A stretch of 17,295 bases of DNA, taken from NCBI GenBank assembly GCA_030041195.1, contig JASHOI010000029.1, positions 1 through 17,295 on the forward strand. The letters are read 5' to 3'. Under the pieces are notes generated by a model. That model did no database searches, was not told where the DNA came from, and saw only the letters and a program-made list of their open reading frames with translations. The first letter of the stretch is position 1, and the number at the start of each line of letters is the position of its first letter. Below are positions 2,941 to 16,725 of the stretch, piece after piece. Position numbers and translations under genes: made by a program. The stretch is from Streptosporangiaceae bacterium. Its GTDB lineage: Bacteria > Actinomycetota > Actinomycetes > Streptosporangiales > Streptosporangiaceae.

Positions 2941-3656
2941 CGGCGGCCAGGGCCCGTCGGGCGGAACGGGAGCGTCGTCGACCCCCCGGTGATCCCGGAG
3001 CGCTCGGGAGGCCGCAGGCCGGCCGCCCGGGCGACCCGCACTGCCTCGAGCCTGCTGTGCACGTCGAGCTTGCTGAAGATGCTGCGGGTGTGGGTGCGGA
3101 CGGTGTCCGTAGAGATCAGCAACTCCTCGGCGATCTGCCGGCCGCGCTTGCCTTCCGCCATGCTCGCGAGCACGTCGCGCTCCCGCGGACTCAGCACGTC
3201 GAGCGGGTCGCCGGCCTCCTTTGCCTTGCGCACATCGTCGCGCAGTTCGCGCAGGATCTCGCCGAGCATCTCCGGCGGGAACCAGGAATGACCCTGGCAC
3301 ACCCCGCGCAGCACGGTCTCCAGATCGTCGGCGCCCTGCTCCTTGGACACCCAGGCCGCCGCTCCTGCCCTGGCGGCGTCCACCGCGTGGGCCACATCAT
3401 GGTCGCCGCTGACCACCACCACGTGGGCGGCCGGCCATGCCGCCTTGAGCCGCGTCAGCACCTCACCGACCGCGAAGCCCAGCGGCTCGACCTCGATCAG
3501 GATGACGTCCGGCCGCAGCCAGCGGACCACCTCGGGCAGCTGCGGGTCATCGGTGCTGCAGCACCCGGCCACCCAGAGGTCGGGCGCGGTGGACAACCGG
3601 GATGCAAGCGCTTCGGTAACCATCCTGTAGTCGTCCACAAGAAGCAGTCGCCGCAC
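2937..3656 (-). CDS. NarL/LuxR-type regulator with Glu at the phospho-acceptor site
   Basis: A 239-residue response-regulator-like protein. The receiver domain (1-118) has the acidic pair D8/D9, Ser83 and Lys105. The phospho-acceptor position, normally Asp in L(M/I)D(I/V), is Glu55 in ILIEVEPLG. Residues about 155-214 are the LuxR helix-turn-helix (LSPRERDVLASMAEGKRGRQ ... TVRTHTRSIFSKLDVHSR). The start is the GTG at 3656, 8 bases after a GGAG ribosome site; a GTG two codons upstream (3662) is in frame but only 2 bases from that site. A perfect 7-bp inverted repeat lies 37 bases upstream. The stop overlaps the start of the downstream GT4 gene. Glu at this site can mimic phosphorylated Asp in some regulators, so it may act without a kinase; none is present in the window. 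Confidence 0.9.
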   Translation of the reverse strand: MRRLLLVDDYRMVTEALASRLSTAPDLWVAGCCSTDDPQLPEVVRWLRPDVILIEVEPLGFAVGEVLTRLKAAWPAAHVVVVSGDHDVAHAVDAARAGAAAWVSKEQGADDLETVLRGVCQGHSWFPPEMLGEILRELRDDVRKAKEAGDPLDVLSPRERDVLASMAEGKRGRQIAEELLISTDTVRTHTRSIFSKLDVHSRLEAVRVARAAGLRPPERSGITGGSTTLPFRPTGPGRR

Positions 3657-3693
3657 ATCCACTACTCCACTGTGCGGTCGCGAGCTGGCATTG

Positions 3694-3823: not shown

Positions 3824-4690
3824 TCAGGGCGCGCTATTGGGGCAGCCCTGGGTGACCTCGCTGTCTTCAGTGGACCAGTAACTGGGCAAGGTGAGATAGG
3901 GGTTCTGGCCGGTCCCGTTGGTTACGTAGACATAACCCGTGTTGCGGCTCTTTGACAGGGTGAGCGCGCTGCCGACCTGGGACCCCGAGGTGGCGTAGAT
4001 CGTGTTGGCGAACCGGTCAGGACTGTAGTCAAACACCCAGCTGGGCACGTCGATGTTGTGGTATTGGGCATACTTGCCCTCGAACGACATCACGACATTG
4101 CTTACGGACATGTAGCTGGGATCCGGGAAGTCTCCCGGGTTGATCCAGATCGAGGCTCCCGGGTTAGTACCGCGAATGTAGCGCGCCAGTTTCCGGTAGT
4201 ACGAAAGCTGACTGCTGATCCCCTTGACCTCGTCAAGGAAGATATCGGTGACGCCGTACCAGGCCTTGTAGTGCCGGACGTCCGCTTCAATCTGCGAAAG
4301 CGGCCGCGCCCCGTAGCCTGTCGACGAATAACCGAGGATCGTGACGCCGGCGGCCTTTTCCTTCCTGACGATGTTCTGGAAGTGCCCCACGGGGGCAGTG
4401 CCTGCGCCGGTCCCCGAGATATCAAGAATCATGTAGCTGGGCGCGGGCTTGGTGTCCGCCGCCTGCTCCCAGATTGCCGACGAGTAGAAATAGGCGGGGA
4501 CGAACGTGTGCTGTGGATGGCAGCCCTTGCTCTGCACGGTCGCGTCCTTCTGCTCCGTGGTCAGCTTGGCCGTAATGCCGGCCGCGACGCCGAGCACGAG
4601 GATGGCCACGATCACCACGACCGTCACCGGCCTGGTTACCCACGCCAGATTTCTCCGCTGGCGGCCCCGGTGGTTCGGAATATTAGACAT
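3824..4690 (-). CDS. membrane-anchored spherulin-4 family protein (GH135-like glycosidase)
   Basis: A 288-residue protein. Residues 1-20 are basic and 21-38 form one hydrophobic helix, so it is probably a type II anchored protein with the catalytic domain outside. Residues about 62-280 match the spherulin-4/GH135 TIM-barrel pattern: FVPAYFY, ILDISGTGAG, GVTILGYSSTGYG, the acidic pair in TDIFLDEVKG (D153, E154), and a later Glu in VVMSFEG (E204). In the characterised fungal relative Sph3 the family cleaves alpha-1,4-linked N-acetylgalactosamine polymer; activity here is inferred. The only two cysteines (C57 and C283) flank the domain and could form a disulfide, which fits export. The ATG at 4690 is followed directly by the basic/TM segment; its ribosome site is weak (GGG about 10 bases upstream), and it follows the paralogue by 39 bp. 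It may trim or release the polymer. Confidence 0.85.
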   Translation of the reverse strand: MSNIPNHRGRQRRNLAWVTRPVTVVVIVAILVLGVAAGITAKLTTEQKDATVQSKGCHPQHTFVPAYFYSSAIWEQAADTKPAPSYMILDISGTGAGTAPVGHFQNIVRKEKAAGVTILGYSSTGYGARPLSQIEADVRHYKAWYGVTDIFLDEVKGISSQLSYYRKLARYIRGTNPGASIWINPGDFPDPSYMSVSNVVMSFEGKYAQYHNIDVPSWVFDYSPDRFANTIYATSGSQVGSALTLSKSRNTGYVYVTNGTGQNPYLTLPSYWSTEDSEVTQGCPNSAP

Positions 4691-4729
4691 ATCAGCATCA
4701 GCCCTGGTCGGCTCCGGCTCCTACATGTA

Positions 4730-5440
4730 TTAACGCAGCCACGGTGACTCCGGTTGGAGACCCCCGGCGGGAAGACTGTTGTACGGGTTGGCCCCGGCGC
4801 GGTCGGTGATGTACACGCTGCCCGCACGGCGCCGCATCGCGAGCAGGAATGCGTGGTCGTAGTTCTCCCGCGGCACCGCGTATACGACGTGGTAGAACTT
4901 GTCGGCCGGTCTGGACCGGGTCCACCGGGGGACCGCGAGCTGAAGGTAGGACCGCCACGGGCCCTCGAAGGTGCCGAGCAGATTGGCGTGCTCGGCGTAC
5001 GCCTCAAGCGGGTGCGCACCGTGGTTGAACATCACCATCCGGGCGCCGGCGTACCGGGCATCCCGGGACAGCCCGGAGTAGTAGCCGAGGTGCTCGGCGG
5101 TGATGGACACCCGGTCGAAGCACACCCCGGCCACGTTGTACCACTTCAGGAAGTGCTCGAGATCGGTGAGGGCCTCCCGGGGGTGGCGCTGGCCGTAGTT
5201 GGTGTCTACGTATCCGACGATCGCCACCCCGGCCTGGCGTAGCCGGTCGAGCGCGTGAGGATAGGCGGCGTCGGGCCCGGTGCCCGGGCCGTTGGCCACG
5301 TTGAGTATCACCAGCCGCACCTGCGGGCCGTGCTCGGCAAGCACCTCCCAGTCGTCCGGCCTGGTATCCGGGCGGAAGTACGCGGGCACCACCAGCCGCG
5401 GTGTGTCCAGCTGCAAGCGGTCAGTGGAGCGCCGACGCAC
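4730..5440 (-). CDS. second spherulin-4 paralogue without signal, D-R in place of D-E
   Basis: A 236-residue paralogue of the neighbour at 3824-4690. Matching blocks in order are VVPAYF, VILNVANGPGTG, GVAIVGYVDTNYG, VAGVCFDRVS, LLGTFEGPW and a shared C-terminal NPY..LP motif. There is no signal peptide or membrane segment. The acidic pair of the neighbour (FLDE) is FDR here: D109 is kept, the following Glu is Arg110, and Glu159 of the FEG motif is kept. The start is the GTG at 5440, with a GGGAGG ribosome site 6 bases upstream, overlapping the end of the SDR gene by 20 bp; the long open frame upstream is a shadow of that gene. It may be a glycosidase with altered mechanism, a binding subunit, or a partner of the anchored paralogue. 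Cytoplasmic location is inferred from the missing signal. Confidence 0.82.
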   Translation of the reverse strand: MRRRSTDRLQLDTPRLVVPAYFRPDTRPDDWEVLAEHGPQVRLVILNVANGPGTGPDAAYPHALDRLRQAGVAIVGYVDTNYGQRHPREALTDLEHFLKWYNVAGVCFDRVSITAEHLGYYSGLSRDARYAGARMVMFNHGAHPLEAYAEHANLLGTFEGPWRSYLQLAVPRWTRSRPADKFYHVVYAVPRENYDHAFLLAMRRRAGSVYITDRAGANPYNSLPAGGLQPESPWLR

Positions 5441-6338
5441 CGGTTGCCTCCCACAGGTCGGCCAGCGAGGCCGCGAGGTCGCGGCGTGGCTGCCAGTCCA
5501 GGTCCAGGCGGGCCAGACCGATGTCGGCCTGCTGCCAGTCCAGGTCACCGGATCGCGCGGAGCCGACCGAGTCCTCATGCACCGGCCCGGCGTACCCGGT
5601 GACCGCGATGAGCTCCTTGACCAGTGTCCGGGCCGGGACCCCGGTGCCGCTGCCGATGTTGAGCACGGCGTGCGGCGTCCCGGGCGCGCCAGCTGCGGCG
5701 AGCACCGCGTCGGCAACGTCGCGCGCGTCGACGAAGTCGCGGACCGCGTCCAGAGGGCCGAGTCGTACCTGGTCGCCGCCGTCCAGGGCCCGGCGCAGCT
5801 GCGCGGCGACCCTGCCAGGCAGGCCGCTCTCCGGCGCCCCGGCCCCGACCGGGTTGAACACCCGCAGCACCACGGCGTCGAGCCCGGCCGCCCGGCTCAG
5901 CTCGACCAGCCGGGTGCCGGCCAGCTTGGTCGTGCCGTACGGCGCGCCGGGCCGCGGCGGCGCGGACTCGTTGAGCGCGACGCCCGGCTCGGCACCGCCG
6001 TACTCCGCCGCCGAGCCCAGGTGCACGAGCCTGGCCGGCGTCCCGGCGGCCAGCATCGCCCGGACCAGCGTGTAGGTGCCGGTGATGTTGGCCGTGGCCA
6101 GCACGTCCGGGCCGCCAACGGTCAGCCCGGCGCAGTTGGCGATCGCTTCGGGCGCCACCGACGCGATGATCTCGGCGATCCTCGCCGGGTCGTCCGCCGC
6201 GAGGTCGAGCCGCTGGTGCGCGGGCGAGCCGGGCAGCCCGGCCCGGCCCGCGGTGACCACCTCCGCGCCGGCCGCTGTGGCCCGCCGCCACACGTGGCCG
6301 CCGAGGAACCCGCTCGCGCCGAGGATCAGCAGCCGCAT
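5421..6338 (-). CDS. NAD(P)-dependent SDR sugar reductase/epimerase
   Basis: A 305-residue extended-SDR enzyme acting on nucleotide sugars in the cytoplasm. The N-terminal Rossmann motif is GASGFLGG (7-14). The catalytic set is S109 in HLGSAAEYGG and Y134/K138 in APYGTTK. A typical sugar-nucleotide C-terminal domain follows (LRVFNPVGAG, RDFVDARDVADAV, LNIGSGTG). Overall it resembles GDP-4-keto-6-deoxy-sugar reductases and 4-epimerases. The ATG at 6338 begins at the first Rossmann strand and has CAGGA about 9 bases upstream; a GTG at 6377 overlapping the upstream gene is possible and would add 13 residues. It directly follows the 4,6-dehydratase-like gene, so a dehydratase-then-reductase pair producing a deoxy or epimerised sugar is the likely role. 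The exact substrate is not readable. Confidence 0.86.
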   Translation of the reverse strand: MRLLILGASGFLGGHVWRRATAAGAEVVTAGRAGLPGSPAHQRLDLAADDPARIAEIIASVAPEAIANCAGLTVGGPDVLATANITGTYTLVRAMLAAGTPARLVHLGSAAEYGGAEPGVALNESAPPRPGAPYGTTKLAGTRLVELSRAAGLDAVVLRVFNPVGAGAPESGLPGRVAAQLRRALDGGDQVRLGPLDAVRDFVDARDVADAVLAAAGAPGTPHAVLNIGSGTGVPARTLVKELIAVTGYAGPVHEDSVGSARSGDLDWQQADIGLARLDLDWQPRRDLAASLADLWEATGASALH

Positions 6339-6360
6339 GGCGTGCGTCCTGCCGGACAAC

Positions 6361-7356
6361 TCACTGGTGGTACTCACCTGTCTTGAACCGGGCCAGGTTC
6401 GCCGGGTCGCGGAACCATTCGATCGTCTCGGTCAGGCCCTCGTCCCTGGTGTACTGAGGCCGCCACCCGGTACGCTCGCGCAGCTTCGTCGCGTCGCACA
6501 CCAGCCGCATCACCTCAGAGTCCTTGGGACGCAGCCGCTTGGGGTCCTCCACGATATCCGCCTCGACCCCCATAAGTCTGGCGATATCCTCCGCGAGCTT
6601 GCCGATCGCGATGTCGTCGCCGGGACCGCAGTTGAACAGCTCGCCGATGACCGCCGAGGCGGGAGCCTCGCCGAGAGTCATGAACGCCTCGGCCGTGTCC
6701 AGCACATAGGAGAAGTCCCGGGTCGGGTCGAGCGCGCCCAGCATCAGCTGCTTGGAGCCGCTCGCGAGCTGGGTGATGATCTGCGGGATCACAGCGCGGG
6801 TGGACTGGCGCGGGCCGAAGGTGTTGAACGGCCGCAGCGTGACCACCGGCAGCCCGAAGCTAAGGTGATACGACTCGGCGAGTTTGTCGGCGGCGGTCTT
6901 GGAAGCCGCGTACGGCGACTGGGACTGCAGCGGGTGCGACTCGCTGATCGGGACCGTGCGCGCGGTGCCGTAGGTCTCGCTGGTCGAGGTGTGCACCACC
7001 CTCGGGGTCCGGCAGGATCGCACGGCCTCGAGCACGTGCATCGTGCCGATCGCGTTGGTATCGATGAACGACCGCGGCGCGCTGTAGGAGTAAGGGACCG
7101 AGCCGACGGCGGCGAGGTGGAACACCACCGAGGCGCCATCCACGAGCTGGAGCACGGTCGCCGGGTCGCGCACGTCCCCGAACACCACGTCGACCTGGCC
7201 GGCGATCTCCGGCTCCAGCGTCTCCAGCCATGCGGTCGAGCTCCACATGTTGTACAGGACCATGGCCTTGACCCGGTAGCCGCGTCGCACCAGTCCCTCC
7301 ACGAGGTGGGAGCCGATGAACCCCTCGGCCCCGGTGACCGCAGCGATCTCCGTCAT
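6361..7356 (-). CDS. NAD-dependent nucleotide-sugar 4,6-dehydratase, LegB-like
   Basis: A 331-residue extended-SDR enzyme. The Rossmann motif is TGAEGFIGSH (8-17), and the active-site segment is VHTSTSETYG with catalytic Y149 and K153 in SPYAASK. The LRPFNTFGPRQS loop and RDFSYVLDTAEAF are typical of sugar 4,6-dehydratases. The opening pattern GAEGFIGSHLVEGLVRRGY with VLYN resembles the LegB group, which in legionaminic acid pathways dehydrates GDP-GlcNAc; I recognise this by pattern only. The ATG at 7356 is preceded by a GGAAGGAA ribosome site with about 7-base spacing, while the ATG at 7380 has none. The partner reductase starts 22 bp downstream. No legionaminic acid synthase (NeuB-type) is visible, so the product is more likely a deoxy-amino or epimerised hexose for the polymer. 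Confidence 0.87.
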   Translation of the reverse strand: MTEIAAVTGAEGFIGSHLVEGLVRRGYRVKAMVLYNMWSSTAWLETLEPEIAGQVDVVFGDVRDPATVLQLVDGASVVFHLAAVGSVPYSYSAPRSFIDTNAIGTMHVLEAVRSCRTPRVVHTSTSETYGTARTVPISESHPLQSQSPYAASKTAADKLAESYHLSFGLPVVTLRPFNTFGPRQSTRAVIPQIITQLASGSKQLMLGALDPTRDFSYVLDTAEAFMTLGEAPASAVIGELFNCGPGDDIAIGKLAEDIARLMGVEADIVEDPKRLRPKDSEVMRLVCDATKLRERTGWRPQYTRDEGLTETIEWFRDPANLARFKTGEYHQ

Positions 7357-7398
7357 GGGTATTTCCTTCCGAATCTGCATTTACGAACTTCGCTGTCA

Positions 7399-7413
7399 GC
7401 CGCGCGTCGCGGC
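7399..7413. other. 6-bp stem hairpin between membrane protein and dehydratase genes
   Basis: GCCGCG (7399-7404) and CGCGGC (7408-7413) form a perfect 6-bp stem with a 3-base loop, starting 7 bases beyond the membrane protein stop codon in the 64-bp gap. No T-run follows, so it may be a weak attenuator or an mRNA processing or stability element that sets expression of the sugar genes apart from the upstream ones. Confidence 0.35.
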
Positions 7414-7420
7414 CCTGTGT

Positions 7421-8878
7421 CTAGTAGGCGTGACGCACCGCCCTCCCCAGCACGATGAGCGCGAACCCGCCGACGACGACGAGCAACTCCACGCACGCAA
7501 CGATCTGCGCGGTCACGCCAAGGCCGCGGAAGATGATCTCGATGGCGAGGGCAACGGCGCAGGCGACGAGCGGAAAGATGCGCGAGCCGAGTGCCTGAAG
7601 CGTCAGCGCGATGAACATCGCCGCGCCCAGCGCGCCGTACGCCGCGAGCTGGGGCAGGAACGTCAGGTTCGGGTGCAGCAGCCCGGTCTTGCTCGCGATC
7701 TCCGCCGCGGCCAGGGTCAGCACCGCGGCAGCGGCCATGTACTGGAGCACCGCCGCCACCAGGATCAGTCGCGCACGGGTCCCGAACCCGCGCATCTGCC
7801 TGGTCGTGCGCAGCAGCCGCTGCGTTCGCCTCCGGTACCAGAGCAGGCTCACCTCGGCCGCGCCCATGCTCAAGGACAGCGGCACCCCGGCGAGCAGCGC
7901 CGCGAAGTTGATGCCGCCGTGGCCGTGCGGGCCCGCCGCGACGGGGAAGATCAGCAGGCCAGCGGCCACAAGCCCGAAGCCGATCGCGGGCAGCGTCCCC
8001 AGCCACTCCTCGCGATCGAACAGCTTGCCCGTCGCCGGGCCGGCCCGGTGCGTGAAGATCAAGGCCAGCGCCAGCGCGAGCAGCGGGGTGGTGGCCATCG
8101 TTGCCCACGCCACGTGCTGCAGGTAGACCGGTCTGCCCAGGGCCAGGAACGCGGCACTGTACAGAACGCCGGGTGCGAGCGCGACCATGAGCCACGCCTC
8201 GGCGCCGAGCACCATCAGGGCGCCGGCGCCGAGCATGTAGATGCCCTCGCCGAAACCGAACAGCAGTGCCGACGGTGGCGCGTGCACCACGCGTCCGGTG
8301 ACGGCCAGCGCCGCGGCCACCACCAGGAGCCCTCCGGCCAGGGCGACCCGCAGCACCCGCCGTGTCTGGTCCATGTCCGTCGTCCGGCCGAGCCTGATGT
8401 AGCCAAGGTAGGCCAGCCCCTGACCCATCGACCACGCCGCGACCAGCGCCACGATCAGCGCGATCTCCACGCCCGGTCCTATGAGCAGGCCGACGGCGGC
8501 GGGGAAGCAGACTCCGGGCAGGGCGTAGAGCAGGCCGTGCAGCAGCGGCCGGAGTTTGCCGTTGGCCGCCCACGGGTCCGACGGCACGTCCGGCTCGGCC
8601 GGCTGGCGCTTTACCCGGAAGTACATGTCCTGGGCGAGCGCGAACACGTCGGGATAGCCGTAACGCCGCTTGGCTGCCTGATCGCCCAGGCCCTCGAACT
8701 CGAGCGCGCTGGCGATCTCCAGCGGATCGACGGCGGACTCGCACACCGACGAGAACTGCTCGCATAGCGCCGCCACGGTGCGCGGCACGCGGTGGTGCTG
8801 CCCGTTGGCCGGGTGCGGCTTAGCCGGGGCCGCCAGCTGCGACCCCGACACTGGCTCGTGCCCGTTGCTGATGCTCAT
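7421..8878 (-). CDS. polytopic membrane protein, candidate polysaccharide exporter
   Basis: A 485-residue protein with a cytoplasmic N-terminal part (1-110) and about twelve hydrophobic helices (roughly 114-134, 137-160, 176-196, 204-224, 226-247, 258-275, 295-315, 324-344, 370-392, 407-430, 433-452, 456-478). The N-terminal part contains a conserved-looking stretch, ALEFEGLGDQAAKRRYGYPD, that I cannot assign. A positively charged loop (about 348-370, YRRRTQRLLRTTRQMRGFG) lies between helices 8 and 9. Twelve helices and the position directly after a PelF-like transferase gene (13-bp gap) suggest an analogue of PelG or a Wzx/MOP-type flippase. I see no clear PelG signature at the N-terminus, so this is inference from topology and context. 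The ATG at 8878 has GCGGGAA about 7 bases upstream and removes a 78-residue shadow of the transferase gene. Confidence 0.82.
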   Translation of the reverse strand: MSISNGHEPVSGSQLAAPAKPHPANGQHHRVPRTVAALCEQFSSVCESAVDPLEIASALEFEGLGDQAAKRRYGYPDVFALAQDMYFRVKRQPAEPDVPSDPWAANGKLRPLLHGLLYALPGVCFPAAVGLLIGPGVEIALIVALVAAWSMGQGLAYLGYIRLGRTTDMDQTRRVLRVALAGGLLVVAAALAVTGRVVHAPPSALLFGFGEGIYMLGAGALMVLGAEAWLMVALAPGVLYSAAFLALGRPVYLQHVAWATMATTPLLALALALIFTHRAGPATGKLFDREEWLGTLPAIGFGLVAAGLLIFPVAAGPHGHGGINFAALLAGVPLSLSMGAAEVSLLWYRRRTQRLLRTTRQMRGFGTRARLILVAAVLQYMAAAAVLTLAAAEIASKTGLLHPNLTFLPQLAAYGALGAAMFIALTLQALGSRIFPLVACAVALAIEIIFRGLGVTAQIVACVELLVVVGGFALIVLGRAVRHAY

Positions 8879-8891
8879 GCCGTGTTCCCGC

Positions 8892-10403
8892 TCACCCTGC
8901 GGCCTCGAGCAGTTCGGTCTCCTCGTCACGCCCTGGCATCGCGGACACGGTACGGTCGTCCGACTCGTCCTCATGCTCGGCATTCGGCAGCTCGAGGCCC
9001 GTACCGACGAACGTGTAGATCTCATCGAACGCGCTGATCGCGCGGTCGACCGTGAAGTACTCCAGCGCACGCATCCGCGCCGCTGCTCCGAGCTTCCGGC
9101 GCAGGCTGGCATCCCGCAGCAGGGTCAGGCAGGACTGGGCCAGCGCCTCCGGGCTGCGCGGGGGGACGATCATGCCGGTATCGGCGACCGCTTCGCTGAC
9201 GCCGCCGACGTCGGTGGCAACGCACGGCCGCCCGCAGGTCATCGCCTCGATCAGGGTGTAAGGGAAGCCTTCGGAGATGCTGCAGAGCACCACGACCTGC
9301 CCGGAGTCGTAGGCGTCGCGGATCTTCTCCACGCGGCCCTCGAAGGTCGCGACACCGGAGAGGCCGAGATCGGCCGCGAGCTCCTTGCAGCGTTCCAGGT
9401 ATGCCTCCTGGCCCTGCGGAGGAGAACCGAACATCCGCAGCTTTGCCTCCGGCATTTCCCGGTGCACCAGCGCGAACGCGAGCAGCAGGGTCTCCAGGTC
9501 CTTGACCGGGTCGACGCGGCCTGCCCACGAGATCGTCGGGGTATCGGGCTCGGTCTCGCTGGCGGGGAAGTCGGCGGGATCCACCCCGTTGTACACGGTG
9601 CGCACCCGGGACAGATCAGCGCCAAGCTGCTCCTCCCAGCGCTTGTTGTAGACGTTGCCCGGCGTGATCAGTTCCGCTTCGGCGTAGCCGAGCGAGCACA
9701 TCCGGCGCAGGAACCGCAGGTGCAGGGCGCGCACCGGCCAGCGGAACGGGACATCACGGCTGTGCAGGTACTGCTCCCGCATGTAGATGCCGTGCTCGGT
9801 GACCACCATCGGAGTGCCGTAGCGCCACTTGGCGGCCAGCGCGGGCAGCGCACCGAGACCATTCGTCACCGCGTGCGCGATATCTGCCCGCACCGGCGGG
9901 TACGACAGCGGACGCAGGGAGTGCTCGAGCAACTGCATCGCGGTCACCGTGTCGTGCAGCGAAGGCGACGCCTCCGTCGAGTCGAGCCGCCAGTCCCGCC
10001 AGGTCTCGCTGAGCAGGCGCACGGCATGGTTGCTGGACAGGCTGGCGCTGAGGTTCTCGGTCTGGGCGAACTCGAAGACCTCGCGCAGCACATCGCCGAA
10101 GCGGTCCTGCTTCTCGGACGGCGAGGCGAGCAAGATATCGATCAGATCGGGGAGGGCCGGGCACGGCACCGCCCGAGTCCGCCGACCGCGCCGGAGCGCG
10201 GGCGGCGGACCCCAGAGCGGCATGCTCTGCACCGAAGCGACGTTGCCCGGCAGCGACCACCGAACCGGCTCGGCACCCGTCGCGGTCAGTGCAACCAGCA
10301 GGAAGTCATAGTCAGGCATCCCGCGGACAAGCTGGTCACACCAGACGCTGACCCCACCGAACTGGTGCGGGTAGGTGCCTTCTCCGATTAGCGCGACATC
10401 CAT
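8892..10403 (-). CDS. PelF-like GT4 family glycosyltransferase
   Basis: A 503-residue GT4 enzyme, longer than usual for GT4, as in PelF. The N-terminus MDVALIGEGTYPHQFGGVSV followed by W matches the PelF opening, where the GGVS-W segment is characteristic. Further PelF-like landmarks are ADIAHAVTNGLG (173-184), MVVTEHGIYMREQYL (199-213) and ITPGNVYNKRWEEQLG. The donor half has VYNGVDP, WAGRVDPVKD (R296, K301) and the E-X7-E motif SEGFPYTLIEAM (E378, E386). PelF in the Pel pathway uses UDP-activated sugar to build a GalNAc-rich polymer in the cytoplasm; substrate identity here is inferred. An acidic C-terminal tail (about 470-503) is extra. The start at 10403 sits at the first strand with AGGTGA about 10 bases upstream. 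It is followed 13 bp later by the 12-TM protein, mirroring pelF-pelG order. Confidence 0.9.
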   Translation of the reverse strand: MDVALIGEGTYPHQFGGVSVWCDQLVRGMPDYDFLLVALTATGAEPVRWSLPGNVASVQSMPLWGPPPALRRGRRTRAVPCPALPDLIDILLASPSEKQDRFGDVLREVFEFAQTENLSASLSSNHAVRLLSETWRDWRLDSTEASPSLHDTVTAMQLLEHSLRPLSYPPVRADIAHAVTNGLGALPALAAKWRYGTPMVVTEHGIYMREQYLHSRDVPFRWPVRALHLRFLRRMCSLGYAEAELITPGNVYNKRWEEQLGADLSRVRTVYNGVDPADFPASETEPDTPTISWAGRVDPVKDLETLLLAFALVHREMPEAKLRMFGSPPQGQEAYLERCKELAADLGLSGVATFEGRVEKIRDAYDSGQVVVLCSISEGFPYTLIEAMTCGRPCVATDVGGVSEAVADTGMIVPPRSPEALAQSCLTLLRDASLRRKLGAAARMRALEYFTVDRAISAFDEIYTFVGTGLELPNAEHEDESDDRTVSAMPGRDEETELLEAAG

Positions 10404-10621
10404 TTATTTTTCGTCACCTGACTTGAAGTTGTGTGCTCCTGTCTGCTGCGTGGGGAGGGGTAACAAGCTCTGCTTGACTGCCTTCCGTTGCCCTCGAGAT
10501 CGCGGAGCCGAGCTTGCCCTTGGGCACGGCCAGGGTGTTCACCATGTCGTTGATGGCTTTTGCCGAATGGGCCCGGCCGCCACGGTGATCACGAACCGCA
10601 ATCTCCCGCTCATGTTTCCTG

Positions 10622-11818
10622 TCAGCCTGTCCCTTCGTTGCTGCTGGCCGCAGACGCCGCAGCGGCCGGGCTTGCCCGTCGTGACGCGGCCGCCGACCGG
10701 CGGCGCGCGACCTTGCGCTGGTCCCGGCGCGGCCGGGCCTCGAGGATCTTCTCGTAGAAGTCGTCGATCCGGCTGACCACGGAATCGATGCCGTACCTGG
10801 CGAACACCCTGCTGTCCGCGACGCGCGGCCGGGGGCCGGTGTCAAGCTCCTTGTGGATCTCGTCCCGCAGTGCGTCCGGGGTGCCCGCGACCATGCGGGC
10901 ACGCTCGGTCTGGATGCCGTCGAGGGCAGGGCAGGTCGTGTACAGCACGGGCAGCCCGCTGGCCAGCGCCTCGAGCACGGACAGCCCGAACGTCTCCTGC
11001 AGCGAGGCCGCCACGTACAGGTCGAAGGCGGCGAGCATCGCCGTGGTGTCGGACCGGTAGCCGCCGAAAATCACGTGATCGGTCACGCCGAGCCGCTTCG
11101 CCGTGGCCTCGAGCCTCGGCTGGTCCTCGCCGCGCCCGATCACCAGGATCTTGCACTTGTCGCCGAGCATCGGCGCAGCCGCCTCCATGGTCAGGTCGAC
11201 CCGCTTGTTCGGGTCCAGGCGGCCGAGCGCGCCGATCACATACGTGTCCGGCGGGATACCGAACTCCACGCGGATGCGGTCTCGCGCCTCCGCGTCGAAG
11301 CCGAGCTCGTCGGTGTCCACCCCGTTTGGGATGACGGTGACCTTGCCGGGCCGCACGCCCCAGCGCACCAGGCGGTCCTTGACGATGTCGGACACGGCGA
11401 TCGTGGCGTCGGAAAACCTCTCGGAGCTCAGGTACAGCGCCTGAACGCCCCTGGTCATCTTGCGCCGCTCGATATGCGTCTCGCCGATCGAGTGCTCGGT
11501 GGTCAGCACCACCGGCGTGCCAGCCAGCCGGGCGGCGGGGCGGGCATAGATCTGCGCGCGGTACAGGTGCGTGTGCACCACGTCGTACTGGCCGTCCTTG
11601 ATCAGCTTGCGCAGCCGCAGCAGCGCGGGCAGCTCGGTGTTGCGCTGCATGCCGAGGTTGCGGACCGTGGTCCCCTGGGCCTTGATCATGTCGGCGACCG
11701 GGCCCGGGTTGTACAGCGTCACCACGTCCGATTCGTGCCGGGTGCGCCGCAGGATCATTGCGAGCTGCAGCTCGGCGCCACCAGCGTCGAGACCGGTGAT
11801 GACGTGAAGCACTTTCAT
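10622..11818 (-). CDS. GT4 family glycosyltransferase
   Basis: A 398-residue retaining GT-B transferase. The acceptor half begins MKVLHVITGLDAGGAELQLA, the usual GT4 opening with a GGAE loop, then YDVVHTHLYRAQIYAR (78-93) and TTEHSIGE. The donor half has IPNGVDTDEL, GALGRLDPNKR (R200, K205) and the E-X7-E motif QETFGLSVLEAL (E275, E283). The last 35-40 residues are Arg- then Ala/Ser-rich and probably disordered. The start at 11818 is decided by an excellent AAGGAGG ribosome site 9 bases upstream, which overlaps the stop codon of the deacetylase gene, so the two are coupled. It would add one sugar to the lipid-linked repeat or polymer. Donor is unknown. Confidence 0.93.
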   Translation of the reverse strand: MKVLHVITGLDAGGAELQLAMILRRTRHESDVVTLYNPGPVADMIKAQGTTVRNLGMQRNTELPALLRLRKLIKDGQYDVVHTHLYRAQIYARPAARLAGTPVVLTTEHSIGETHIERRKMTRGVQALYLSSERFSDATIAVSDIVKDRLVRWGVRPGKVTVIPNGVDTDELGFDAEARDRIRVEFGIPPDTYVIGALGRLDPNKRVDLTMEAAAPMLGDKCKILVIGRGEDQPRLEATAKRLGVTDHVIFGGYRSDTTAMLAAFDLYVAASLQETFGLSVLEALASGLPVLYTTCPALDGIQTERARMVAGTPDALRDEIHKELDTGPRPRVADSRVFARYGIDSVVSRIDDFYEKILEARPRRDQRKVARRRSAAASRRASPAAAASAASSNEGTG

Positions 11819-11832
11819 AAAACGTCTCCTCC

Positions 11833-12675
11833 TTAGCTGGTGGCTCGGGGCGCTCGTCCCCCCGAGCCGCCAGGCGGGGGGGTCTGGGGGTCCTGGGAGG
11901 TCTGGTCCCCCGGGCGGGAACGCGTCGCGATGCGGGCCCGGTAGAGCAGCCGCTTGACAGTCATCCGCCTCGCATCGTCCTGCTCGCCGACGTAGAGCCT
12001 TGGCAGTGCCATCAGGCCGATCTCGGCCGTCGAGGCCTCCACGGCGCATGCGTGCTCGTAGCCCGCGTCGCGCACGGCCCGCCGGGCAGCGGCGTCCATC
12101 GACCCGTATGGGTAGGCGAACCCGCGGATCTCGGTGCCGAGCAGCGTGCCGAGGCTGGTCCTGCTCTCGCTGATCTCGGCCGTCAGCTGGGCCGGGCTCG
12201 CCCCGGCCAGGCGCATGTGGGTGGCCGCGTGCGAGCCGATCTCGATCCCCGACGCCGCGAGCTCGCGTACCTGATCGCCGGTCATCAGCTGCCAGACCGG
12301 GCCCTCGTCCCACTCGTTGGTGCCGCCGAGCCGGTCGGAGATGATGTACGCGGTCGCGCCGAAGCCGTGCCGCCGCAGCACCGGCAGCGCGGTCTCGAGC
12401 ACGTTGGTGTACCCGTCATCAAAGGTCAGGCCCACGAGTCCACGCTGACGGCCTGCGCGCATCGCATCGACGAGTTCCGATATGCCGACGCCGCGCAGAC
12501 CATGGCGGGCTAGCCAGGCCATCTGCTCGGCGAACCGGGCGGGCGAGACGCAGAGCTGGTTCGGGTCCTCGTCCACGTCGGCAACACCGTGGTACATGAA
12601 GATCATTGGAGCCTCGCGCAGCTTGAGCTGGCCATCCTCGAGCCACCGTGCGGCGCTTACGGTCGCGGGGCTCAT
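11833..12675 (-). CDS. polysaccharide deacetylase (NodB/CE4 family) without signal peptide
   Basis: A 280-residue CE4-type deacetylase, expected to remove N-acetyl groups from amino sugars with a divalent metal. Visible motifs are: MYHG near the start (27-30); motif 1 TFDDG (84-88, with catalytic D86 and metal-binding D87); motif 2 SHAATH (H149, H153); and motif 3 FAYPYG (187-191 region). The C-terminus is Pro/Gly/Arg-rich. There is no signal peptide or membrane helix, unlike exported deacetylases such as PgaB or the PelA domain, so it may act in the cytoplasm on a precursor or lipid-linked sugar, or leave by another route. The ATG at 12675 overlaps the sugar transferase stop as ATGA and has a GGAGGAA ribosome site 3 to 4 bases upstream. 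With the sugar transferase just before it, it may deacetylate the first lipid-linked sugar. Confidence 0.92.
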   Translation of the reverse strand: MSPATVSAARWLEDGQLKLREAPMIFMYHGVADVDEDPNQLCVSPARFAEQMAWLARHGLRGVGISELVDAMRAGRQRGLVGLTFDDGYTNVLETALPVLRRHGFGATAYIISDRLGGTNEWDEGPVWQLMTGDQVRELAASGIEIGSHAATHMRLAGASPAQLTAEISESRTSLGTLLGTEIRGFAYPYGSMDAAARRAVRDAGYEHACAVEASTAEIGLMALPRLYVGEQDDARRMTVKRLLYRARIATRSRPGDQTSQDPQTPPPGGSGGRAPRATS

Positions 12676-14114
12676 CGTTCCTCCGATCGGCGAGTGATCG
12701 TGGACGCGAGGGTGCGGGCGAGGATCACGACGTCCAGCCATGGCGACCAGTACTCGATGTACTGGTTGTCGAAACGGGCGCGCTCGACGATCGAGGTGTC
12801 CCCGTTGAGGCCGTGGACCTGTGCCCAGCCGGTCAGGCCGGCCTGCATCCTGGTCCGGTCGCTGTACCGCAGGATCTCGTGGCCAAACTGATCGGCGAAA
12901 TACGGCCGCTCCGGCCTGGGGCCGACCAGCGACAGGTCCCCGCGCAGCACGTTCCAGAGCTGCGGCAGCTCGTCCAGGTGCGTGTCACGCAGCCAGCGGC
13001 CCAGGGCACTGCTCTGATGCCCGGATACCCCCCACGAGGTGTCAGGGTCGGCGCTGCCGCTGAGCGTGCGCAGCTTGACGACCGACGACGTCCGGCCGCG
13101 GCCGGTGACCCGCTGCTGGCGGAACAGCGCGGTCTGGCCCGTCCGCAGCCTGATCGCTGCGGAAAGGACGAACAGCACTGGCGCCGCCGCGATCAGCAAG
13201 GTCGCCGCGATGACCACGTCGAGGGTGCGCTTCAGCGCCAGGCTCACGACCGAACGGCTCAGGCGCCGGAGCGGGATCAGCGGTATGCCCCAGATCTCGT
13301 CCAGGCAGGCGCGCGGCACCGCCATGCCGACCTCGTAGAGCCGCGGCACCACGCAGATGTCGGCGCGCAGTGGCCCAGCCGCGCGCAGCACGTTGACCAG
13401 GTCCTCGTCCTTGCACGCGGCGTAGCACACGATGACCCGGCGGATGCCGAGCGTGGTGACGACCTGCGCGAGGTCGGCGGGCACGCCGAGCGACGGGAGT
13501 GCCAGGTCTCGGCGGGGCGGGCCGTAGTCCAGGTAGCCCCGCACCCGGAGCCCCAGCTCCGGGTGCGCGCGCATCAGCTCGCCGATGTGCGCACCGAACG
13601 TCCCTGCCCCGATGATGATCGCTGACTCGCCGAGCAGGCCGCCGCGCCGTGCGGTGCGCAGCACCGCGCACACCGCGATGCGGAACGCGATCATCAGGCC
13701 GGCCGACCAGAGCGCGAGCCGGACAGCGGCCCCGGCCGGCATCCACAGCAGCAGCGCCAGCAACGGCAGCGCGGCCGCTGTGATGATCCGCCCGGCCTGG
13801 TCGGCGACGCGCAGGCAGATCCGCAGCCGGTGCAGCCCCAGTGCGCCGAGGACGCAGAGGACGGCGAGCGCGTAGAGTATTTCCGGCGCTGCCGCCCTCC
13901 CTGCCACCCCGACGGCGGCGGCCAGCGCGAGGGCGTCGGCAGCTGGCAGCGCCACGACCGGCACGATCCGGCTGGCCCGCCCGGCTCGGTGCGCCCGCCG
14001 CTGCTGGCGCGCGAGCTGGGCCGGCCGGTCAAACCCCCCGTCACCGGGCCGCGCAGCAGGGACACGCCCGAACGGGTCCGTGTCCGCGCTGCGCTGCCCG
14101 AAGTCTCCGGTCAT
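12672..14114 (-). CDS. polyprenyl glycosylphosphotransferase (priming sugar transferase)
   Basis: A 480-residue enzyme of the WcaJ/WbaP-like family that transfers sugar-1-phosphate from a nucleotide sugar to undecaprenyl phosphate, the first step of lipid-linked polysaccharide synthesis. Four N-terminal helices lie at about 50-72, 78-96, 110-126 and 131-152. A Rossmann-like CoA-binding-type domain follows (SAIIIGAGTFGAHIGELM, 164-181). The C-terminal transferase domain begins with KRTLDVVIAATLLIAAAPVL (295-314), then FRQQRVTGRG, the catalytic pair in HLDELPQLWNVLRGDLSLVG (D381, E382), PRPERP and AGLTGWAQVHGLNGD. The usual K-F-R-S-M is VKLRTL. The start at 14114 overlaps the flavoprotein stop as TAATG. 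The frame is open upstream but shows only shadow sequence. Its presence implies synthesis on a lipid carrier. Confidence 0.94.
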   Translation of the reverse strand: MTGDFGQRSADTDPFGRVPAARPGDGGFDRPAQLARQQRRAHRAGRASRIVPVVALPAADALALAAAVGVAGRAAAPEILYALAVLCVLGALGLHRLRICLRVADQAGRIITAAALPLLALLLWMPAGAAVRLALWSAGLMIAFRIAVCAVLRTARRGGLLGESAIIIGAGTFGAHIGELMRAHPELGLRVRGYLDYGPPRRDLALPSLGVPADLAQVVTTLGIRRVIVCYAACKDEDLVNVLRAAGPLRADICVVPRLYEVGMAVPRACLDEIWGIPLIPLRRLSRSVVSLALKRTLDVVIAATLLIAAAPVLFVLSAAIRLRTGQTALFRQQRVTGRGRTSSVVKLRTLSGSADPDTSWGVSGHQSSALGRWLRDTHLDELPQLWNVLRGDLSLVGPRPERPYFADQFGHEILRYSDRTRMQAGLTGWAQVHGLNGDTSIVERARFDNQYIEYWSPWLDVVILARTLASTITRRSEER

Positions 14115-15352
14115 TACCGGCCCGCTGCCACTGCTGCCCGGGACCGGCTGCCCGTACTGGATCCGATGAGCTGCCGCGCCACCGTGGTGGCGGCGTGCTC
14201 GGAGCCGAAGACGAAGCGCATGACCGGCCCCATGGTCGGGGCGACGGCGGGGCCCATGATGTACAGGCCGGGAACGGTGGTCTGGTAGTCGCGGCCCACC
14301 GCGGCGCTGCCGGTGCCCGGCACGTTGCGCAGGCCGGCCAGCATCTGCTCGCCGAAGAACGACAGCCGGGTCATGTCCCACCGGTAGCCGGTGCCCGCGA
14401 TCACGTGGTCGGCGCCGAGCTCACGCGTGCCGCCGACTCCGGTGAGCCCCAGGCGGACGCCGCCGTCCTGCATTCTTGCCCACTTGATCGACAGGCCGGT
14501 CAGGGTCGGGAACTGCCCCTCGACGCGCTCACGCAGCCAGCTTGCGCCGGCCGGGCCGAGCGCGGTCCTGGCCCGGTAGACCCGCGTGGACCGCGGCAGC
14601 CGGCGGAACGTGCCGGGGTGGTTGGAGTAGAACCAGGTCGCCCAGCCCGAGCCGAGGCCCGACTCGGGCTCCTTGAGCCGCTGCAGCAGCGGGCGGTCGA
14701 GCGCCAGCGGCAGGCCGTTCCAGCGGATGACGTCCTTCCTGGCGACCAGCTGGACCTTGGCGCCCTTCTCGTGCAGCAGCGCGGCCGTCTCGAGCGCGGA
14801 GTTGCCGGCGCCGACGACGATGACCTCCTGGCCGGAGAAGACCCCCAGGTCGCTGTGGGCCGAGGAGTGCGTGCACACCGCCGACGGCAGCGCGGACAGC
14901 GGCTCGGGCACATAGGCGAACGCCTCGACGCCGATGGCCACGACGACCTTGCGCGCCCGCACCTGCTCGGAATTCGCCAGCGTGACCTCGAAACCGTCGC
15001 CGACCTTGGCGATGTCGGTGACGAGCACCTCGTCGATGTCCGGCACGAGTTGCTCACGGAACCACTGGCCGTAGGCGACGAACGTGTCCAGCGCCACCGG
15101 CAGGCCGTAGTCGCGGTAGGGCCGGCCGGTCGCCTTGCAGAAGGCCTCGAGCGTGTGCGTGTGGTCGGGGTCGGACAGGTTGGACGCGAACCCCTGCGAC
15201 TTCAGGTACATGCCCTCGGGCATGAAGTCCCGCCAGAGCTGCATGGGCAGCCCGAACTGACGCACGCTCACGCCGGCCTTACGCAGGTGCGCGCCGAGCG
15301 ACAGTCCATACGGGCCGGCTCCGACGATCGCGACCTCAACGGCGTCGCTCAT
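14114..15352 (-). CDS. FAD/NAD(P)-binding oxidoreductase of flavin monooxygenase type
   Basis: A 412-residue flavoprotein. The FAD Rossmann motif is VAIVGAGPYGLSLG (7-20), the NADPH-binding motif is VIVVGAGNSALETA (177-190), and an ATG-Y-type motif is IAGTGYRWD (318-326). A C-terminal FAD-closing segment follows (VPGLYIMGPAVAPTMGPVMRFV). The order matches class B flavin monooxygenases and lysine/ornithine N-hydroxylase-like proteins, which oxygenate amines, sulfides or ketones; the substrate here is not known. The start at 15352 is decided by an AAGGAGGGG ribosome site about 8 bases upstream and an ATGA overlap with the ATP-grasp gene. A longer open frame upstream is a shadow. It is sandwiched between ATP-grasp and priming transferase genes with overlapping ends, so it is probably a tailoring enzyme of the polymer or of a substituent. 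Confidence 0.87.
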   Translation of the reverse strand: MSDAVEVAIVGAGPYGLSLGAHLRKAGVSVRQFGLPMQLWRDFMPEGMYLKSQGFASNLSDPDHTHTLEAFCKATGRPYRDYGLPVALDTFVAYGQWFREQLVPDIDEVLVTDIAKVGDGFEVTLANSEQVRARKVVVAIGVEAFAYVPEPLSALPSAVCTHSSAHSDLGVFSGQEVIVVGAGNSALETAALLHEKGAKVQLVARKDVIRWNGLPLALDRPLLQRLKEPESGLGSGWATWFYSNHPGTFRRLPRSTRVYRARTALGPAGASWLRERVEGQFPTLTGLSIKWARMQDGGVRLGLTGVGGTRELGADHVIAGTGYRWDMTRLSFFGEQMLAGLRNVPGTGSAAVGRDYQTTVPGLYIMGPAVAPTMGPVMRFVFGSEHAATTVARQLIGSSTGSRSRAAVAAGR

Positions 15353-16725
15353 ACTTTTGTCCCCTCCTTGGGAGATCGCGGCTCCGTTTGCCGCGCTTTC
15401 TCGGTCTGACTTACTGGGGTAGTGACCAGCTGCGAGCGCGGCGCGCCCCGGCCGGCCCTGGCAGCGCCCCGGCCGCCGGAGAAACGGAAATCCGTGCTTG
15501 ACGCCTTGCCCTGCGGCAGGCGGAGCGGCCTGGTGGCCACGCGCCAGCCCATGCGCAGGCACATCACCCCGAACGGCCGCAGGTCGTCGCGAGCGAACCA
15601 TGCGGTCTCGTCGATCGTGCGCATCGACGCCAGCCACGACCGCAGGTCGAGCTCGCCGCCGCGCCAGTACCGGAACGCTGCGATCGGGTCGTAGTTCTCG
15701 ACCACGAACCTGCGGGATACCTGCTCGCTCTCGGGTATGGCCTGCCCGGTCAGGTCGAGGTAGCAGGCCGTGGCGACGTCGGTGCCTGCGGCGTCGCGGA
15801 AGAGCTTGAACTGCGCGCCGATCCTGGGGTTGAAGTCCAGCAGCTTGTACTGGCCGTCCCTGGGGTCGTACCGGATGTCGAGGTCGAGGATCCCCTGGTA
15901 GCCGATGCTCTGCAGCAGTCCGGTGATCTGGTCGCGCAGCTTGTCGTTGGGCTCGGAGCGACCCAGGCAGGTCAGCCCCGCATGCGCCGGGTAGGACCTC
16001 TCCTTGACACCGGTGAACGCCGGGCGGCATGCCGAGCTGGCGTCGCAGTAGCCGTGGAAGAACCAGTCCTGCCCCGGCCCGTCCGGGATGAACTCCTGCA
16101 GCATCAGCCCGACGCCAGCCTCTGTGCACGCACGGTAGATGTCATCGAGGTCACCGGTGTCGGCCAGGATCGAGGTGCTGCGTACCCTTCCGTGCCCGGT
16201 CCACGGAGATGCCAGCTTGGCGATCAGCGGGAAGCCCGTCACAGCCGCGAACCCGCGCGCCGCGTCCAGCGACTCCGGCATCGTGGCCTGCACGCTCGGC
16301 ATGCCGACCTCCCGCAGCAGCTCGTGCAGCGAGTACTTGTCGGCAACCCGGCGGGGCAGATCCCGGGGCGGGGCCGGGAACAGGAAGTGCTCGCGGAGAC
16401 CGTCCCCGTGCTCCGTGAGGAAGATCGAACCCGCGTCGTCGGTGGGGATGAGCACGGCGCGCTGGCCGATCCGCTCCGCGAGCCGCAGCAGGCCTGCCTG
16501 GACTCGCTCGACGTCGTCTGGGTTCGGCTGCCAGAAGAACCGGCCGTGCAGATACCTGGAGTTCGCCGCTGGCGCCCACGGCCCCTCGTGCACCCCGTAG
16601 ACCGGCGCGCCGAGTCGTCCTAGGCTGCGGATGACACCAAGGCCGCCGTGATGCATGACGTTCGGGTCGAACTTCAACACCACCGCCGGCGTTGTCCCGG
16701 TGGCACGCGCGTTGTCGCTGCTCAT
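15349..16725 (-). CDS. ATP-grasp domain ligase-like protein
   Basis: A 458-residue protein of carbamoyl-phosphate-synthase-like ATP-grasp type. After an N-terminal pre-ATP-grasp domain (AVVLKFDPNVMHHGGLGVIR, then VLIPTDDAGS about 91-100) come VADKYSLHELLREVGMP (K130), PLIAKLASP (K170, ATP phosphate contact), LMLQEFIPDG (208-216, adenine hinge) and the metal-binding ILDLDIRYDP and LLDFNPRIGAQF (D297, N299, R301). The usual catalytic Glu before NPR is Asp297. Such enzymes activate a carboxylate as acyl-phosphate and join it to an amine. The ATG at 16725 fits the domain start, but the ribosome site is weak (GGTG), so the real start is less certain. It is the first gene of the coupled block and likely works with the flavoprotein. 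It could attach an amino acid or other acid to an amino sugar; that is inference. Confidence 0.87.
   Translation of the reverse strand: MSSDNARATGTTPAVVLKFDPNVMHHGGLGVIRSLGRLGAPVYGVHEGPWAPAANSRYLHGRFFWQPNPDDVERVQAGLLRLAERIGQRAVLIPTDDAGSIFLTEHGDGLREHFLFPAPPRDLPRRVADKYSLHELLREVGMPSVQATMPESLDAARGFAAVTGFPLIAKLASPWTGHGRVRSTSILADTGDLDDIYRACTEAGVGLMLQEFIPDGPGQDWFFHGYCDASSACRPAFTGVKERSYPAHAGLTCLGRSEPNDKLRDQITGLLQSIGYQGILDLDIRYDPRDGQYKLLDFNPRIGAQFKLFRDAAGTDVATACYLDLTGQAIPESEQVSRRFVVENYDPIAAFRYWRGGELDLRSWLASMRTIDETAWFARDDLRPFGVMCLRMGWRVATRPLRLPQGKASSTDFRFSGGRGAARAGRGAPRSQLVTTPVSQTEKARQTEPRSPKEGTKV

Follow-up and report, generated by a model that had tools for sequence, protein, structure and literature searches.

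Several described polysaccharide systems resemble the locus analysed here, which lies in a 17,295-nucleotide stretch (hereafter, the window) of contig JASHOI010000029.1 from a Streptosporangiaceae bacterium and encodes a PelF-like glycosyltransferase, a membrane protein, two spherulin-4 proteins, a deacetylase and sugar-nucleotide enzymes. The Pel operon (pelABCDEFG; pelDEA-DA-FG in Gram-positives according to PMC7112168) shares with it PelF, an adjoining membrane protein, and the presence of a deacetylase and a glycosidase in the operon. Gram-positive pel loci with PelG have been described (Whitfield et al. 2020, PMC7112168; Bundalovic-Torma et al. 2020, PMC7112194). The fungal galactosaminogalactan (GAG) cluster (uge3, gtb3, sph3, ega3, agd3) has in common with the window a GH135 protein of the Sph3 kind. 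Its CE18 deacetylase (Agd3) and GH114 enzyme (Ega3) have counterparts in sister loci but not in the window, and instead of its membrane synthase Gtb3 the window encodes a soluble PelF and a core GH135 protein without export signal. In bacteria, Bamford et al. (2020, PMC7229062) reported Agd3 homologues in 30 Terrabacteria: all agd3 operons identified there encode a cytoplasmic glycosyltransferase together with a multi-spanning membrane protein, GH114 is frequent in them, and spherulin-4 occurs in some Actinobacteria. The system of the window is like these operons in its cytoplasmic glycosyltransferase and multi-spanning membrane protein, and in the Agd3, GH114 and spherulin-4 kind of gene content.

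The general kind of operon is thus already known in print. However, the part of PMC7229062 on which we draw does not name the actinobacterial glycosyltransferase as PelF, the family of the membrane protein, the localisation of spherulin-4, or a variant with CE4 and lipid priming, and open-licence literature on PelF/PelG, Agd3 and spherulin-4 in Actinobacteria, Streptomyces and bacteria yielded no title on the present variant. Our analysis indicates that the window carries a real, conserved exopolysaccharide locus, which is a variant of the Pel/GAG-like kind, and that its operon probably makes an extracellular amino-sugar-containing polysaccharide by means of PelF and a membrane protein with a predicted MOP fold.

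The glycosyltransferase is a PelF, as a first-pass annotation of the window had proposed. It passes the cut-off of the NCBIfam PelF equivalog NF038011 (174.3 bits for a cut-off of 100) and matches the DUF3492 model PF11997 with 177.6 bits. It is 28–30% identical to three PelFs associated with PelG. The residues R296, K301, E378 and E386, which we take to be those of the GT4 active site, are invariant in a 16-row alignment that includes 12 relatives and the three PelFs preceding true PelGs. In a 63-row maximum-likelihood tree, rooted at the midpoint for drawing only, all 58 PelFs join apart from five other GT4s (100/97). Within the same tree, 55 Actinomycete-class PelFs split from the three PelG-associated ones (96/98), with warnings for long branches (L079, L081–L083, L097 and the further GT4 of the window, GTb) and for unlike composition in four rows, including all three PelG-associated rows.

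The gene following PelF, after only 13 nucleotides, encodes the sole protein among the 14 of the window to which our Pfam scan assigned no family; NCBIfam gave no match for it either. Its AlphaFold2 model has 12 long hydrophobic helices, in agreement with the 12-transmembrane (12-TM) protein first described at this place, and an N-terminal helical domain at about residues 35–90. The structural matches of the model are MATE, WzxE and MurJ, all with the 12-helix MOP fold, bearing in mind that absence from the list of fold matches excludes no family. The kinship with Wzx or MurJ is unsupported by sequence, with hhalign values of at most 2.3% and 0.5%, respectively, for control sets filtered by hydropathy and length (Wzx from 20 to 19, MurJ from 16 to 12). 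The first-pass annotation had read the pair as pelF-pelG. The position after PelF stands and the fold agrees by prediction, but the family does not: we reject identity with PelG on the basis of Pfam (no match of PF16933 to window proteins at E 0.001), NCBIfam and profile comparison (0.1% in hhalign against sets of both three and nine PelGs), and a profile of the nine PelGs found nothing in the window. By prediction, the 12-TM protein is a MOP-fold family that occupies the place of PelG.

These results bear on the idea that the window carries a genuine Pel operon, in which pelD, pelE and pelA were lost or diverged and the 12-TM protein is a fast-evolving PelG. We consider this unlikely. The profile test that leaves the 12-TM family at 0.1% from nine PelGs does link PelG to Wzx, and PF16933 is found in none of the 12 genomes carrying these loci. 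The split of the PelF tree also speaks against it, although the three PelG-associated rows are long-branched or odd in composition. No GAF/GGDEF domain of the PelD type or TPR protein of the PelE type was matched by Pfam among the 14 window proteins, in line with the earlier remark that no cyclic di-GMP (c-di-GMP) receptor is recognisable. Both kinds are present in an Actinomycetota Pel operon (L104 5493–12770), which encodes a GAF/GGDEF protein, a TPR protein, PelF (490.7 bits) and PelG; the gene next to pelG on its far side encodes an Agd3/CE18 deacetylase (85.8 bits for a cut-off of 27.6). Unlike the Pel operon, the window lacks a PelG family member, the PelD c-di-GMP receptor and PelE, has a priming transferase and sugar genes, and encodes a CE4 and a core glycosidase without export signals.

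The grouping of these genes is more than chance, because their order recurs across 16 fetched loci. These loci (L001–L016), all with the membrane protein, come from genomes of Streptosporangiaceae, Trebonia, Pseudonocardiaceae and Acrocarpospora. PelF precedes the membrane protein in 15 of them (the contig of L004 begins at the membrane protein), two SDR genes (SDR1 and SDR2) follow it in 15 (L006 passes straight to spherulin-4), and spherulin-4 is present in all 16. An extra gene stands between the SDRs in L003, L005 and L007–L016. In the three that were scanned (L005, L008, L011) it is a nucleotidyltransferase (PF00483), which a profile search did not find in the window. In a wider sample of 246 evenly drawn Actinomycete-class genomes we found PelF in 26, the membrane family in 26 and Pfam spherulin-4 in 19. 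PF16933 matched in 11 of these genomes at E 0.01, in 3 of them over the cut-off; these three matches were not accepted as PelG, having 30–32 bits in frames of 1339–1432 residues. The membrane protein is present in 39 of 41 PelF loci (44 rows before merging the split matches of G101, G185 and G211), 39 of 40 membrane proteins are accompanied by a PelF (41 before leaving out a second match in G203), and 25 of 30 spherulin-4 matches are within 12 kb of PelF. One of the two exceptions for PelF, and three of the five for spherulin-4, are at short contigs or contig ends. The conserved neighbourhood implied by the first-pass annotation is thus borne out both in the named loci and class-wide.

Spherulin-4 is near PelF in 24 of the 41 loci by Pfam alone and in 35 of 39 extended regions by a purpose-built profile. 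These 39 regions leave out G003 (which is L005) as well as a 2.8-kb piece where a contig ends, and their gene content was counted only by 12 purpose-built profiles. They are mainly of three types. Type I has the order Agd3-like gene, PelF, MOP protein, SDR1, nucleotidyltransferase, SDR2 and spherulin-4 (Sph4); type II has Agd3-like gene, PelF, MOP protein and Sph4; type III has PelF, MOP protein, SDR2 and Sph4, with no Agd3-like gene.

The pair of PelF and membrane protein was also found on plasmids of Streptomyces californicus (213.9 bits), where RefSeq annotates the partner as hypothetical, of Kocuria rosea (38.8 bits) and of two Deinococcus (158.3 and 125.2 bits), and on a Thermus plasmid only once the profile had been widened (46 bits). 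Among the 38 plasmid records with a PelF match, we opened six from Pseudomonadota, and in all six the next gene is annotated pelG. On the Deinococcus plasmids (L145 and L155), the pair is accompanied by SDR, nucleotidyltransferase and Agd3-like genes; its occurrence in another phylum suggests horizontal transfer. The Kocuria rosea plasmid NZ_CP126484.1 (L154 2514–11582) carries a compact unit of Agd3-like gene, pelF, membrane protein, spherulin-4 and GH114, the latter without hydrophobic leader as annotated. This plasmid is mobilizable, the unit is flanked by two transposase genes sharing one protein accession, and it may be a mobile matrix-polymer unit.

The sister loci supply the link with known polymers. 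In 11 of the 16 named loci, a protein of 642–698 residues (as called) is encoded ahead of PelF. The four scanned with Pfam matched Agd3 models below the cut-off, and their alignment has Agd3 (6nwz, E 8.8e-10) as its only PDB match. All 10 Agd3-like proteins checked (8 of these 11, plus those of L146 and L154) have hydrophobic leaders, some upstream of the called start. Class-wide, an Agd3-like gene is present in 17 of the 39 extended regions; one of these genes lies on the opposite strand and one matches weakly (98 bits). GH114 (PF03537) matches none of the 14 window proteins; it is found in 6 of 10 relatives' genomes and follows the locus genes in L008, L009 and L146. By homology, the Agd3-like CE18 and GH114 of sister loci support a tie of the system to galactosaminans of the Pel/GAG type. 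In L003, a 1200-residue open frame cut at the locus end (17795–21394) has a remote Agd3-like match (84 bits), and contig C90 of the same genome carries both a GH114 match and a 1924-residue frame with Agd3-like pieces.

The Agd3-like profile has no match in the window, nor in L001, L002, L004 and L006. Instead, a CE4 deacetylase without signal stands within a priming module in the window, L001, L002 and L006, while L005 and L007 have the same module with an Agd3-like gene and no CE4. The CE4 motifs FDDGY and SH(A/G/S)ATH are kept in all four rows, and none of the four N-termini is hydrophobic by hydropathy, i.e., they have no export signal. The CE4 gene overlaps by 4 nucleotides the gene of the priming transferase, which scores 294.4 bits with TIGR03025, just under the cut-off of 295.55. 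The next gene, GT4a, is conserved in L001, L002, L005, L006 and L007. The Caulobacter holdfast system, with HfsE for priming and the deacetylase HfsH, reported to be cytosolic (PMC5362036), shares lipid priming and a cytosolic CE4 with the scheme we propose. The HfsE and HfsH models match window proteins at 127.8 and 56.5 bits, both under the cut-offs. Unlike in the holdfast system, no Wzy/HfsC was found in the window; to our knowledge, PelF and GH135 are absent from the holdfast system.

The module is headed by an ATP-grasp protein and an FAD oxidoreductase, whose genes overlap by 4 nucleotides and lead it in four loci (the window, L002, L005 and L007). The PDB matches of the former are weak (CPSase/ATP-grasp), and PDB searches gave no close solved relative for either. 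The pair possibly has a role in a sugar substituent.

The priming transferase, the three GT4s (PelF, GT4a and GTb), the Wzx-like fold of the 12-TM protein and sugar genes hinting at a deoxy sugar are also what one would expect of a Wzx/Wzy-type heteropolysaccharide, built on a lipid and flipped by the 12-TM protein, with Wzy encoded elsewhere and PelF adding a single sugar. Yet no polymerase family (Wzy) was found among the 14 window proteins. Furthermore, none of the 39 class-wide regions has a priming transferase, so that there PelF and the MOP-fold protein must suffice, and in L073 and L077 the type II operons, as called, contain only the Agd3-like gene, PelF, the membrane protein and spherulin-4. 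This makes the Wzx/Wzy route improbable. Many lipid-primed glycans of actinomycetes are attached to the wall, which would fit a teichuronic- or teichoic-like cell-wall glycopolymer or a surface glycoconjugate rather than a free exopolysaccharide. We find this less probable still: the 14 window proteins include no LCP-type ligase or polyol-phosphate family, and the characterised GH135, GH114 and CE18 enzymes covered by PMC7229062 and PMC12054363 act on secreted galactosaminans.

The core spherulin-4 copy, Sph4b, is modelled with a pLDDT of 92.7 and a TMq of 0.82 to Sph3 (5c5g), and the spherulin-4 profile matches 5c5g with E 2.6e-24. Sph4b and its orthologues have no hydrophobic N-terminus by hydropathy, and their genes overlap or closely follow the preceding one (in the window, Sph4b overlaps SDR2 by 20 nucleotides if its start is 5440). 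Sph4b is thus predicted to be cytosolic. The other copy, Sph4a, has a 19-residue hydrophobic segment (KD 2.42). Such N-termini are found in the second copies of the window, L001, L002 and L003, in the only copy seen in L006 and in an extra copy in L079; the hydrophobic stretch of the second copy of L004 lies further in, and the high value of L009 (2.01) falls inside the domain. The GH135 Asp and Glu aligned to the Sph3 pair are kept in both window copies and in all 22 rows of alignment A4, of which rows L008–L016 are also counted in the type I residue count. In Sph3 this Asp is followed by a Glu, and so it is in the Sph4a proteins of the window and L001, giving Sph4a the D-E...E set of 5c5g; the remaining 20 rows have Arg or Gln there. 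For Sph3, PMC12054363 names Glu222 and prints Asp196; the aligned Asp stands 56 residues before the aligned Glu, which by alignment places it at 166, and we take the printed number as a slip. None of the 19 type III rows has the acid/base Glu, and 12 of them have Ser at this position, with the reservation that added rows may be partly misplaced. Because the gene was kept in place after loss of the Glu, this points to a non-hydrolytic role of type III spherulin-4. Type III regions are L047–L065, L084 and L085; in the one scanned (L058), the unit is flanked by an oligopeptide-type ABC transporter on one side and a ThiF/rhodanese gene on the other.

The nearest curated model of SDR1 is TIGR04180 (LegB; 417.9 bits, under the cut-off of 475). 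Its motif TSTSETYG, whose T-x-E arrangement is presumably of the 4,6-dehydratase type, is present in 24 of 27 rows, the others being a low-scoring SDR (L082, 112 bits), half of a split gene (L004) and TSTSETFG (L009). Its PDB relatives are dehydratases and epimerases alike. SDR2 matches 4-keto-6-deoxy reductases and epimerases with similar scores, including 2pk3, a GDP-6-deoxy-D-lyxo-4-hexulose reductase. A 6-deoxyhexosamine (FucNAc or QuiNAc, for example) must therefore be considered alongside GalNAc, and given the motif and nearest model of SDR1 a 6-deoxy sugar seems at least as likely a unit of the polymer. Of the amino-sugar polymer first suggested, the tie to Pel/GAG thus holds while the sugar is amended, and the first-pass annotation was right to mark the polymer's identity as inference. 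None of these sugar genes is seen in type II loci, whose polymer would then draw on housekeeping nucleotides.

From the family assignments, gene order, predicted fold, hydropathy and conservation, we infer the following catalysis, order of steps and product. SDR1 and SDR2 would provide an activated sugar, the priming transferase would load sugar phosphate onto polyprenyl phosphate, and GT4a would extend the primed lipid. PelF would polymerise at the cytosolic face of the membrane, and the MOP-fold protein, standing in for PelG, would bring the lipid-linked or nascent glycan across. CE4, in the place of the secreted Agd3-like deacetylase of sister loci, would act on the glycan in the cytosol, so that deacetylation precedes export, which is also the proposal for HfsH. 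The cytosolic spherulin-4 may trim or hold the nascent chain, and the anchored copy may trim it outside.

A few results weigh against this scheme. The ATP-grasp protein and the flavoprotein, two of the 11 genes of the run, have no role in it. The 218-nucleotide gap between GT4a and PelF might separate two units in the window. The priming module is missing from all 39 class-wide regions, implying that PelF does not need it in general, and in the class-wide draw it appears only in L005 (G003), without CE4. Finally, searches of whole genomes gave no Agd3-like gene in the drafts of L001 and of L004/L006 (G528 and G529), but the genome of L002 (G001), whose locus is of the CE4 type, retains one on another contig (L156 9252–11381), where the surrounding 19.9 kb contain no PelF, membrane protein or spherulin-4. 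Hence, CE4 replaces CE18 at the locus, whereas for the cell as a whole such a replacement is only suggested.

The window has 14 genes, all on the minus strand (Table 1). From 16725 down to 3824 they form a run of 11, from the ATP-grasp gene to Sph4a, in which neighbours overlap or stand at most 40 nucleotides apart, save for the gap mentioned above. The proteins named in the first-pass annotation are all present in this one run, including the two spherulin-4 proteins, CE4, the priming transferase and the SDRs. Of its two additional GT4s, GT4a is inside the block it delimited (3824–16725) and GTb is outside; the ATP-grasp and oxidoreductase genes were left unmentioned. An Rfam scan of the window gave no family reaching the gathering score. 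GTb follows Sph4a in L002 and L004, and the regulator in L001. Two NarL/LuxR-type response regulators are encoded, with no histidine kinase among the 14 genes. The one at 2937–3662 is a possible regulator of the locus. The other has a match in L001 only, among L001–L016, and its membership is uncertain.

Table 1. Genes called in the window, in order of position.
Feature	Positions	Strand	Evidence and remarks
Second NarL/LuxR-type response regulator	209..1024	minus	PF00072 + PF00196
GTb, further GT4 glycosyltransferase	1675..2940	minus	PF00534 107.3 bits
NarL/LuxR-type response regulator	2937..3662	minus	PF00072 + PF00196; orthologue at equivalent position in L001
Sph4a, second spherulin-4/GH135 copy	3824..4690	minus	PF12138 108.5 bits; N-terminal membrane anchor
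Sph4b, spherulin-4/GH135 core copy	4730..5440	minus	PF12138 113.9 bits; start uncertain (5440, 5416 or 5392)
SDR2, epimerase/4-ketoreductase-like	5421..6338	minus	PF01370 141.9 bits
SDR1, NAD-dependent 4,6-dehydratase-like (LegB-like)	6361..7380	minus	PF16363 237.9 bits; PF01370 195 bits
12-TM membrane protein, predicted MOP fold	7421..8878	minus	No Pfam/NCBIfam match; AlphaFold2 pLDDT 86; MATE/WzxE/MurJ fold
PelF-family GT4 (DUF3492 + GT1)	8892..10403	minus	PF11997 177.6 bits; NF038011 174.3 bits
GT4a, GT4 glycosyltransferase	10622..11818	minus	PF13439 99.6 bits; PF13692 88.7 bits
CE4 polysaccharide deacetylase	11833..12675	minus	PF01522 97.5 bits; without signal peptide
Polyprenyl-phosphate sugar-1-phosphate transferase (priming)	12672..14114	minus	PF02397 170.2 bits
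FAD/NAD(P)-dependent oxidoreductase, 412 residues	14114..15352	minus	PF13738 73.2 bits; conserved in L002, L005, L007
ATP-grasp ligase-like protein, 458 residues	15349..16725	minus	PF02786 24.9 bits; homologues at head of equivalent module in L002, L005, L007

PelF loci are present in about a tenth of the sampled Actinomycete-class genomes (26 of 246), with a membrane partner that is unannotated. Naming the latter as MOP-fold, together with a core GH135 protein that has no signal, gives a testable three-part synthase without a c-di-GMP receptor in the operon. We tentatively put forward, as a possibility that we still regard as doubtful, that a PelF synthase complex of a separate kind exists in Actinomycetes (and Deinococci). 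It would include a new exporter of the MOP superfamily with its own N-terminal cytosolic domain, and an intracellular GH135-fold protein acting not as a hydrolase but as a structural or chain-handling subunit, of which type III would have lost the Glu and yet kept the gene. The clade of the window would have joined this synthase with lipid priming and exchanged, at the locus, the extracellular CE18 for an intracellular CE4, and deacetylation, formerly outside, would thereby have shifted into the cell. If true, partial de-N-acetylation can precede export, whereas in Pel and GAG it comes after export. The finding would also help in looking for galactosaminan-like matrix polymers in streptomycetes; on these, PMC7229062 cites only scattered chemical reports.

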